Part shown: positions 6,001 to 14,536 of the stretch, piece by piece | How the letters are laid out: each line of letters begins with the position of its first letter | Numbering within the stretch: the stretch's first letter is position 1 | Origin: a bacterium | Lineage (GTDB): Bacteria > Desulfobacterota > Deferrisomatia > Deferrisomatales > BM512 | NCBI GenBank assembly: GCA_004322275.1 | Contig: SCTA01000029.1 | Span: 1-64,000 of the forward strand | Direction: 5' to 3' | Length of the DNA: 64,000 nt | The notes under the pieces: generated by a model | Told to the model about the DNA's origin: nothing | Databases searched by the model: none | The model's input: the letters and a program-made list of their open reading frames with translations, nothing else | Position numbers and translations under genes: made by a program

Positions 6001-9000
6001 TTTCAATCCACGCGCCCGCACGGGGCGCGACTCTCGGCGTCAGTTCGGAAAACGCCGAGGAGCTGGTTTCAATCCACGCGCCCGCACGGGGCGCGACCGA
6101 GGAACTCAAGGTGGCGAAAGGGGCAATGCCTTGTTTCAATCCACGCGCCCGCACGGGGCGCGACCCTCGCCCGGCACAGCCGCCGGGCTTTTTCTCGTTG
6201 TTTCAATCCACGCGCCCGCACGGGGCGCGACGCAAGTGGCCTGCAACTAAAGTCCATACGGATATGTTTCAATCCACGCGCCCGCACGGGGCGCGACGTA
6301 CTCTTCTGGACACGGCAGTAGACGGGGCCTTGTTTCAATCCACGCGCCCGCACGGGGCGCGACAGACCGGCGACCTGAAATTCGCCGAAGATAATATGTT
6401 TCAATCCACGCGCCCGCACGGGGCGCGACGAGGAACTCAAGATGGCGAAAGGGGCAATGCCTTGTTTCAATCCACGCGCCCGCACGGGGCGCGACTATTT
6501 TTGTCCCTATGTCGTTTTTTTTACTGCGTAGTTTCAATCCACGCGCCCGCACGGGGCGCGACGCCCCGGATTCGCTACCGCTGAAACATCCTGCAACGTT
6601 TCAATCCACGCGCCCGCACGGGGCGCGACAAGCATGGACAAAGGCGCGTGATACCGTTGTTCAGTTTCAATCCACGCGCCCGCACGGGGCGCGACGTCGA
6701 TTTCACGCTTGCCGGAACCGTCGTGGTTCCGTTTCAATCCACGCGCCCGCACGGTGCGCGACCGGGCCAAAATCGACCAGAAATGCGAGCCCGGAAAGTT
6801 TCAATCCACGCGCCCGCACGGGGCGCGACGCGAAATCCATGACGCCCTGCCGTGGCCGGTGAGGTTTCAATCCACGCGCCCGCACGGGGCGCGACGGTGC
6901 GCGACGTGCGCGACCAGTGCGAGGAGGCAGTTTCAATCCACGCGCCCGCACGGGGCGCGACAGATCACCGCATCGGCGGTCGAGCAATATCAGTTGTTTC
7001 AATCCACGCGCCCGCACGGGGCGCGACGTGCGGGTGCGGCCTGAAAATCACGGGTACGGAGTTTCAATCCACGCGCCCGCACGGGGCGCGACGCTTTGCC
7101 GCTCATAGCCACCCCAGCCACACCAGTTTCAATCCACGCGCCCGCACGGGGCGCGACTTCACCGGGCCTGCCAGACCTGCGAGGTGCGAAAATGTTTCAA
7201 TCCACGCGCCCGCACGGGGCGCGACGCGCAGGCAGAGAGGCTATGTTTTGCCGTCTCCTGTTTCAATCCACGCGCCCGCACGGGGCGCGACCCTCGCGGG
7301 GCTGCGGGGGGGGGGTATCTTCCCCGTTTCAATCCACGCGCCCGCACGGGGCGCGACCTGAAGCGCGCCCTCAAATACCTCAAGAAGGCCGTTTCAATCC
7401 ACGCGCCCGCACGGGGCGCGACGCGCTCTTAGAGCGAAAGAAACACAGAAAAAAGAGTTTCAATCCACGCGCCCGCACGGGGCGCGACCTCTCGTATGGC
7501 TCTATCGACGCCGATGGTGACGGTTTCAATCCACGCGCCCGCACGGGGCGCGACAAAACCTCTTCTGGGGCATATCGTGGGGAAACGTGTTTCAATCCAC
7601 GCGCCCGCACGGGGCGCGACCCCTTCGCCTGGCGAAGGTTGTCGGTGACTCAATGGTTTCAATCCACGCGCCCGCACGGGGCGCGACAAAGGCCCTTTAT
7701 CGCGGCAAAGGTGGTTGTGTACGTTTCAATCCACGCGCCCGCACGGGGCGCGACCAAAGTCCTTGGCCATTTCAGCGGTCGCACCACGGTTTCAATCCAC
7801 GCGCCCGCACGGGGCGCGACGCAAGCACCTCGACCGCCCCTATGAGGACAGCGAGTTTCAATCCACGCGCCCGCACGGGGCGCGACGCCCCGGATTCGCC
7901 GATAAAATTGCGGATGAGGGTTTCAATCCACGCGCCCGCACGGGGCGCGACAGGGAGGGGCCGAAAGGCCCCTCTTAAAAGGAGATGTTTCAATCCACGC
8001 GCCCGCACGGGGCGCGACGAGGAGGGCAAAGCCTATTGGAGCGCCGAATACTCGTTTCAATCCACGCGCCCGCACGGGGCGCGACGATAGTCTCCGCCGC
8101 CGCCCGCGCAGGAATAGCCAGTTTCAATCCACGCGCCCGCACGGGGCGCGACAGGCGGTGTGCGACACGCGCCACGGTGAGATGGGCGTTTCAATCCACG
8201 CGCCCGCACGGGGCGCGACACGCCAAAGTCTCTCTTTTCGTCAAGGCGTGCCTGTTTCAATCCACGCGCCCGCACGGGGCGCGACGTCGGAGAAAACCGC
8301 GTCGGCCGCATCTCCTCCCCGTTTCAATCCACGCGCCCGCACGGGGCGCGACCACCTCGATATGGGCCACCCCCAGCCCATCATCTGGTTTCAATCCACG
8401 CGCCCGCACGGGGCGCGACCGCGGCCTCCGCCCTCTCCACGGTATCCCCGCCGGTTTCAATCCACGCGCCCGCACGGGGCGCGACCCCATCGGGGATGGA
8501 GAATCGTAGAAAAACTGATTGTTTCAATCCACGCGCCCGCACGGGGCGCGACGTTTTCCCCTGTTCGGTTTTAAGGGCTTGTAGGAGGTTTCAATCCACG
8601 CGCCCGCACGGGGCGCGACCCCCGAGCGCGTAAGCGACGGCCAGACAGGAGATAGTTTCAATCCACGCGCCCGCACGGGGCGCGACCTACGGGCTTTACT
8701 CTGGCGATACGCGCCGAGCTGGTTTCAATCCACGCGCCCGCACGGGGCGCGACGCGCCCCCCTGGGCGCTTCGCGTCGGCAAGTTCCAGTTTCAATCCAC
8801 GCGCCCGCACGGGGCGCGACCCGTGGTGGGATAGCCACATGCCGCCCAACGGCTGGTTTCAATCCACGCGCCCGCACGGGGCGCGACCAACTACCAGACC
8901 GAGCCCTATTTCGTCACCGACGTTTCAATCCACGCGCCCGCACGGGGCGCGACCTGTCTGAGGGGCCGCGATAGATCACAGCCGAGAAGTTTCAATCCAC

Positions 9001-12000: not shown

Positions 12001-14536
12001 CTATTACCGCTTGCAGGCATGGGCCTATCTTTCGTGGTTTCAATCCACGCGCCCGCACGGGGCGCGACGAGAAAAAACCAAGGCATTCCCTTTTGAATAG
12101 GAGTTTCAATCCACGCGCCCGCACGGGGCGCGACTCCGGAACTATGCCCTCCGGCCGGTCATCGCGGTGTTTCAATCCACGCGCCCGCACGGGGCGCGAC
12201 GAACCACTCTTTGTGCATGATCAGCCGAGCCACCAGTTTCAATCCACGCGCCCGCACGGGGCGCGACCGACCGCAGTAGGCATAAGCGAAAAGGACTACA
12301 TGTTTCAATCCACGCGCCCGCACGGGGCGCGACATCCCGGCGACGGCATCATCGTCGCCAAAACCCTCGTTTCAATCCACGCGCCCGCACGGGGCGCGAC
12401 CGTCGTGGCCCCGTAATCGCAACTCTTTAAGAGGAGTTTCAATCCACGCGCCCGCACGGGGCGCGACCGTCAGAATCGCGGCGCGTACAAGCGCGGCGAC
12501 TGGTTTCAATCCACGCGCCCGCACGGGGCGCGACTCTATCAGGCCTCCTACCCCGCCCCCGCCTCGTCGTTTCAATCCACGCGCCCGCACGGGGCGCGAC
12601 GCGTCCGCACCGTCGATATCTACGACCCCGAATCGTTTCAATCCACGCGCCCGCACGGGGCGCGACATCCGCGCCGCTCTCGGAGGGGGCTAAGCCATGG
12701 CGTTTCAATCCACGCGCCCGCACGGGGCGCGACGGACGTGTACCGGTGTATACGGCACCGCTGGACCCGTTTCAATCCACGCGCCCGCACGGGGCGCGAC
12801 GCCCTTCGGGCTTGGGGTTTGGTTTGGAAGGGTTGTTTCAATCCACGCGCCCGCACGGGGCGCGACATCGATGGGGCTCCCGTCAGCTTCGACCGATGAA
12901 AGTTTCAATCCACGCGCCCGCACGGGGCGCGACGTAATTTACCATACAGGCTTACAGCGCCAAGCTCTGTTTCAATCCACGCGCCCGCACGGGGCGCGAC
13001 AAGGCCCTTTATCGCGGCAAAGGTGGTTGTGTACGTTTCAATCCACGCGCCCGCACGGGGCGCGACTCGGCGTCGGTGTCCTTCGTCGAAACCCCTACCT
13101 CGTTTCAATCCACGCGCCCGCACGGGGCGCGACCTCGAATCTCGGACACCCGCACCTAGCCAAACCCGCGTTTCAATCCACGCGCCCGCACGGGGCGCGA
13201 CCTGGCGTGGCTACCACCACGGCTTACCGGGATGTAGTTTCAATCCACGCGCCCGCACGGGGCGCGACCTCTCTCCGGGTACGATAGACGGCCCCGGAGT
13301 CTTGTTTCAATCCACGCGCCCGCACGGGGCGCGACCGTGGATAAATAGCGACGAAGTACTCAATTCAGCCGTTTCAATCCACGCGCCCGCACGGGGCGCG
13401 ACTCCGCCACCGGCCGGAAGAGCGAAAGGGAGAAACAGTTTCAATCCACGCGCCCGCACGGGGCGCGACCCCGTGTAAATAAAAATCCCATCGCCCGCAA
13501 AGAGTTTCAATCCACGCGCCCGCACGGGGCGCGACGAGGCGGTCCGTAACGGTTGCCTGGGCGTTGTTGCAGTTTCAATCCACGCGCCCGCACGGGGCGC
13601 GACAGGGCCTTGTTGGCGGTGTCGGCGAGGATGTAGGGTTTCAATCCACGCGCCCGCACGGGGCGCGACTCCACGGGCGCGGCCTCCACGTCGTGGGAAA
13701 CCTTGTTTCAATCCACGCGCCCGCACGGGGCGCGACATTTACAGCGGCCTCTATGTCTGGAGCGAAAGATGTTTCAATCCACGCGCCCGCACGGGGCGCG
13801 ACCTGCGGGGGGGGGGTATCTTCCCCGAACTCAAAGACGTTTCAATCCACGCGCCCGCACGGGGCGCGACAAGCCGGATGGGCGGCTCTGGCGGCGGTTT
13901 TCTTGTTTCAATCCACGCGCCCGCACGGGGCGCGACGATAGCCTCGCCCGGAGTCGTGATCGTCTACCTCGTTTCAATCCACGCGCCCGCACGGGGCGCG
14001 ACTGTGGCCGTCAATCAGGCAGATGTCGAGCGGGCCGTTTCAATCCACGCGCCCGCACGGGGCGCGACGGCGGATATTTTTTAGGAGGAAGACGGCGGCA
14101 TGTTTCAATCCACGCGCCCGCACGGGGCGCGACATGTAGCCGTCTTCGAGCGTCGGCGTGCAGGAAACGTTTCAATCCACGCGCCCGCACGGGGCGCGAC
14201 GTAGGTCTTTATATTTTTGCTTGGCTTGTTCCGCGTTTCAATCCACGCGCCCGCACGGGGCGCGACGCGTCACCCTCCTCGCTGGCTCTCGCTCCCTTCC
14301 TTGTTTCAATCCACGCGCCCGCACGGGGCGCGACGCTGCTCAGGCCATCGGAGACACCGTCTATCTCAAGTTTCAATCCACGCGCCCGCACGGGGCGCGA
14401 CTCTGTCTGACAACACGGCCAGCAGCATTCAGAATGTTTCAATCCACGCGCCCGCACGGGGCGCGACGTCCGGTCTGCGCGGTGACGAGGTTGTTCTTCT
14501 TCACGTTTCAATCCACGCGCCCGCACGGGGCGCGAC
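1..14536 (-). CRISPR. Giant type I-C CRISPR array (219 repeats)
   Basis: A 32-bp repeat, beginning GTTTCAATCCACGCGCCCGC and ending ACGGGGCGCGAC on the plus strand, recurs every 65-69 bp. I count 219 copies, the first at 36-67 and the last at 14505-14536, separated by 218 complete spacers of 33-37 bp. Bases 1-35 look like one more spacer, so the array continues beyond the left edge. On the minus strand the repeat ends GGATTGAAAC, the usual 3' end and crRNA 5' handle of type I-C repeats, so the array is read leftward in the same direction as the cas operon. The leader and newest spacers are therefore at the right end. All repeats looked identical except the one at 6731-6762 (one G to T). Several spacers are duplicated or overlap each other. 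Confidence 0.99.

Follow-up and report, generated by a model that had tools for sequence, protein, structure and literature searches.

The array and its cas operon

The stretch of DNA analysed here (the window, 64,000 nucleotides) opens with a long CRISPR array, base 1 of contig C29 being the start of both the window and the array, and to the right of this array lies a complete and contiguous type I-C operon, cas3-5-8c-7-4-1-2, at 14715-22720 on the minus strand. The features are as follows.

1-14536, minus strand in crRNA sense: type I-C CRISPR array, 219 repeats of 32 nt and 219 spacers, running off the contig
14537-14714, minus strand: leader side of the array, from cas2 to the first repeat, assigned by position and orientation only
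14715-15005, minus strand: cas2 (TIGR01573, 7.8e-19)
15015-16049, minus strand: cas1, type I-C (TIGR03640, 5.6e-149, above cut-off)
16052-16681, minus strand: cas4 (TIGR00372, 2.1e-42)
16689-17579, minus strand: cas7c (TIGR02589, 3.2e-89)
17613-19589, minus strand: cas8c (TIGR01863, 6.4e-120)
19576-20277, minus strand: cas5c (TIGR01876, 6.4e-80)
20291-22720, minus strand: cas3 (TIGR01596 HD domain, 6e-36, and TIGR01587 helicase core, 2e-33, both above cut-off)

The repeat is 32 nt long and ends in ATTGAAAC, the spacers are about 34-35 nt, and the stretch from cas3 to the array contains no cas6; this is an active-looking type I-C CRISPR-Cas locus. Cas8c had weak sequence similarity to the solved Cas8c chains, with best stretches that covered none of residues 1-221. 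Farther right, a selenocysteine tRNA was found at 27468-27561 on the minus strand (Rfam RF01852).

The repeats are exact in 218 cases, and the remaining one, at 6731-6762, carries a single mismatch. Spacers range from 33 to 37 nt, with 178 of the 219 being 34 or 35 nt; the count of 219 includes the spacer cut by the contig edge (1-35), and the true total may exceed it because the contig ends inside the array. When all other contigs of the assembly were searched, the exact array repeat was absent from them; with a multi-contig assembly, the array could conceivably join arrays from several cells. In another genome of the same order (G008:C51:36145-40320), one array combines exact copies of this repeat with variant copies at several positions. 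As the cas operon is encoded by the minus strand and sits right of the array, the crRNA reads from right to left; therefore, the PAM side is the right (plus-strand) end of each spacer, and the newest spacers should be at the right.

Overlapping spacers and the flanks they reveal

The original prediction held that some spacers overlap others taken from the same target, and that these overlaps expose the bases beside each protospacer. All spacers were compared with one another for dovetails, in which the end of one spacer equals the start of another on either strand. The spacers concerned, all on the minus strand, are listed below with the bases next to them in the target.

2655-2689, minus strand: spacer 40, reveals the AAA flank of spacer 65
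2722-2754, minus strand: spacer 41, GAA next in the target
4310-4344, minus strand: spacer 65, AAA (TTT in crRNA sense) next to it in the older spacer that overlaps it
4972-5005, minus strand: spacer 75, reveals the GAA flank of spacer 41
7292-7325, minus strand: spacer 110, GAA next in the target, 24-nt dovetail with 13803-13838
9815-9849, minus strand: spacer 148, GAA next in the target, 16-nt opposite-strand overlap with 10349-10382
10349-10382, minus strand: spacer 156, GAA next in the target, overlaps 9815-9849
13803-13838, minus strand: spacer 208, reveals the GAA flank of spacer 110

The predicted pairs proved to be real, with exact dovetails of 24, 17, and 16 nt at the coordinates and letters given for them. 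Spacer 7292-7325 ends in CTGCGGGGGGGGGGTATCTTCCCC; spacer 13803-13838 opens with those 24 nt, after which it reads GAACTC. When 10349-10382 is reverse-complemented, it agrees exactly with spacer 9815-9849 over 16 nt, and the pair gives the reciprocal flanks GAACAA and GAAGGA. Three GAA flanks were thus present, as had been claimed, but they come from two pairs rather than three. A further pair, beyond those predicted, was found in 2722-2754 and 4972-5005; its dovetail of 10 nt, ACCAGTTCGG, gives the flank GAACCT, and the joined sequence stays an open frame, TVTAAQSDQFGNLLTPEN. With the AAAGGG described below, dovetails of at least 10 nt therefore yield five PAM-side flanks (GAACTC, GAACAA, GAAGGA, GAACCT, and AAAGGG), that is, GAA four times and AAA once, or TTC four times and TTT once in crRNA sense. 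On the PAM-distal side, GAA occurred in none of three dovetails of at least 9 nt.

Chance matching between low-complexity, G+C-rich spacers could in principle produce such overlaps, and the 24-nt overlap does contain a run of ten G. The remaining overlaps are not of low complexity, and 60 spacer sets simulated with the dinucleotide make-up of the real spacers contained no dovetail of at least 12 nt and on average 0.07 per set of at least 10 nt, compared with four and five observed. Given a background GAA frequency of 0.015 within the spacers, the probability of GAA at three or more of four flanks is 1.4e-5, and at four or more of five flanks 2.6e-7. This check leaves coincidence scarcely credible as the source of the overlaps. 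The five flanks readable inside the array, four of them GAA, together with the lack of GAA on the PAM-distal side, support a 5'-TTC PAM (crRNA sense) at acquisition.

The fifth flank comes from spacers 4310-4344 and 2655-2689; the last 17 nt of the former are the first 17 nt of the latter, which then reads AAAGGG. These letters agreed with the original prediction; its suggestion of a non-canonical acquisition is not a necessary reading, since TTT falls within an I-C consensus and since the target may have changed. If AAA were a genuine secondary PAM, the system would also acquire spacers beside TTT. The overlap is exact across its 17 nt, a survey of I-C PAMs includes TTT and TTN for some I-C repeats (PMC8482600), and work on Neisseria lactamica, of the same subtype, takes TTC and TTT as the PAM consensus (PMC10865793), which matches the GAA and AAA flanks found here. 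Against this, the TTT-type flank here is a single case, which may be target variation, and AAA stands in the older spacer, so that the target could have been different by the time the newer one was taken up. One A-to-G change would give GAA, and in the frame SDGFETKISLT* that change merely converts a TAA stop to TGA; other frames at this site are open too. We give a secondary PAM slightly less than an even chance.

We think it about equally likely that the flank reflects a polymorphism of the target, in which GAA was present in the phage strain sampled at 4310 and AAA in the earlier strain sampled at 2655; this reading, too, falls just short of an even chance. Re-acquired spacers elsewhere in the array vary at crRNA positions 1 and 22, and in Legionella pneumophila str. 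Toronto-2005, which has the same repeat type, overlapping older and newer spacers likewise show PAM or seed changes (PMC5071653); on the other side, no target sequence that would show the variant was found.

Repeated uptake of the same protospacers

Six protospacers are each represented by two or three spacers, giving eight pairs of position-exact spacers, all on the minus strand.

5106-5139, 7688-7722, and 13001-13034, minus strand: one protospacer taken three times, 5106-5139 being the oldest
6098-6463, minus strand: re-acquired pair 6098/6430, 35 and 34 nt
7158-7193, minus strand: re-acquired with partner 9614-9647, 36 and 34 nt
10082-10912, minus strand: re-acquired pairs 10082/10877 (35 and 36 nt) and, with two identical 34-nt copies, 10283/10612; each pair shares its PAM-side end
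11078-11373, minus strand: re-acquired pair 11078/11340, 34 nt, identical

It had been predicted that in such spacers the PAM-side end is fixed and the far end varies, and this was borne out: the PAM-side ends coincide in all six groups, and the far end differs by 1-2 nt in four of them. Two base changes, beyond what had been predicted, were also found, one at crRNA position 1, the PAM-proximal position, between 5106-5139 and 7688/13001, and the other at crRNA position 22 between 6098 and 6430. Repeats of this kind might instead have arisen by duplication within the array or as assembly artefacts; two of the groups consist of copies with no difference in length or sequence, and the array comes from a fragmented assembly and terminates at a contig edge. 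This would explain neither the length differences of 1-2 nt in four groups, always at the PAM-distal end, nor the base differences in two groups, and none of the re-acquired spacers has a duplicated neighbour. We therefore consider duplication or artefact improbable. The re-acquisitions fit independent uptake from targets that varied, in which the PAM fixed one end of the spacer and a loose ruler placed the other.

The eight position-exact pairs compare with three partial overlaps of at least 16 nt. From the geometry, we estimate a ratio of partial overlaps to exact pairs of about 73 if any position could be sampled, and of about 1.1 if GAA sites were used uniformly. Relative to uniform use of GAA sites, exact pairs are in mild excess (three partial overlaps where about nine would be expected, Poisson P about 0.02); this excess is merely suggestive, because the triple was counted as three pairs.

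The 5'-TTC PAM is also backed by these position-exact re-acquisitions, by an I-C operon that includes cas4, and by a repeat identical to that of Legionella (PMC5071653). L. pneumophila Toronto-2005 has the same 32-nt repeat and the same seven cas genes as the locus described here, and GAA lies 3' of its protospacers, being present for 20 of 22 laboratory-acquired spacers; there, too, one protospacer was acquired twice independently (PMC5071653). The two differ in host, in array size (at least 219 spacers here and 43 in Toronto-2005), and in the basis for the PAM, which was read here from the array alone and in Toronto-2005 from laboratory-acquired spacers. In Bacillus halodurans, the I-C Cas4-Cas1-Cas2 cuts precisely, directly upstream of GAA (PMC6519985); as here, the Cas4, Cas1, and Cas2 are of one subtype and the PAM does not determine where the prespacer ends on its far side, but those findings are biochemical, whereas ours come from sequence.

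We propose that Cas4-Cas1-Cas2 of this locus would take spacers beside GAA (5'-TTC in crRNA sense), cutting directly at the motif, while a loose ruler would set the other end to give spacers of 33-37 nt. The same invaders, presumably variable viruses infecting repeatedly, would be sampled many times, so that overlapping spacers on one target would accumulate and the sequence of a neighbour would expose the PAM. The same PAM may also serve in interference. We hold this explanation as a whole, of an I-C locus that acquires spacers beside GAA and whose overlaps expose that motif, with high confidence. A GAA PAM is both correct and expected, because it is known for the I-C systems of Legionella and B. 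halodurans; TTC is the rule already known for type I-C, and this array is a sound but ordinary further example of it. What it adds is that one long array can reveal its own PAM without a known target, which is useful where the phages of a host are unsequenced. Of more use than the PAM itself are the exact re-acquisitions, in which the slop of the ruler and the base changes document that varying targets were met repeatedly, and a pair of self-matching spacers that lack the PAM, which is described below.

Spacer matches outside the array

Searches of phage records with the left and right halves of the array found no protospacer, only weak matches near the chance level. Two short faecal contigs recorded as 'Bacteriophage sp.', MT838203.1 (3418-3791) and MT839601.1 (2490-2589), had repeated short matches of the kind given by CRISPR arrays whose repeats resemble this one. 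Plasmids, searched with the right-hand half, yielded no evident protospacer and mostly arrays with similar repeats; viral contigs, searched with four exact spacer cores and four degenerate codon patterns, contained no protospacer; and in 12 genomes of the host order there was no foreign protospacer. Spacer 173 (11471-11504, minus strand) encodes an 11-residue RuvC-like resolvase motif, probably from a phage gene. A viral contig with a RuvC-like gene sharing this motif was considered as its target and rejected, as it had eight mismatches; no other spacer matched that contig within eight.

One spacer allowed an indirect look at its flank.

10216-10250, minus strand: spacer 154, encodes the SSB C-terminal tip DPNEDIPF*

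Among 12 SSB homologues in these genomes with a Phe codon just 5' of the tip, that codon was TTC in 11; the exception was the host's own ssb, which has TTT and 14 mismatches to spacer 154. A TTC codon beside the protospacer would be a hint in favour of the TTC PAM, and an indirect one, because the true target of spacer 154 was not found.

Two adjacent spacers, not noticed in the original prediction, match the host itself.

11537-11572, minus strand: spacer 174, perfect match to host fusA (EF-G); flank GAT (ATC in crRNA sense), not GAA
11605-11638, minus strand: spacer 175, matches a host gene perfectly; flank ATA (TAT in crRNA sense) instead of GAA

Two self-matching spacers that lack TTC accord with the TTC-dependent interference predicted for this locus. 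They fit the survival only of those self-spacers that are unable to direct interference, and do not indicate the route by which they were acquired. A fuller account, in which adaptation favours a few sites beyond the PAM requirement and a single PAM-independent uptake from the chromosome supplied spacers 174 and 175, which were then tolerated for want of TTC, seems to us rather unlikely. Flipped integration and a shifted PAM were also considered for these two spacers and rejected, as neither TTC nor GAA adjoins either end. The target of spacer 175, which had no NCBIfam match, was named by eye as an FG-GAP-like repeat protein; fusA, the target of spacer 174, was likewise named from its sequence by eye and adjoins a gene whose sequence reads as that of ribosomal protein S7.
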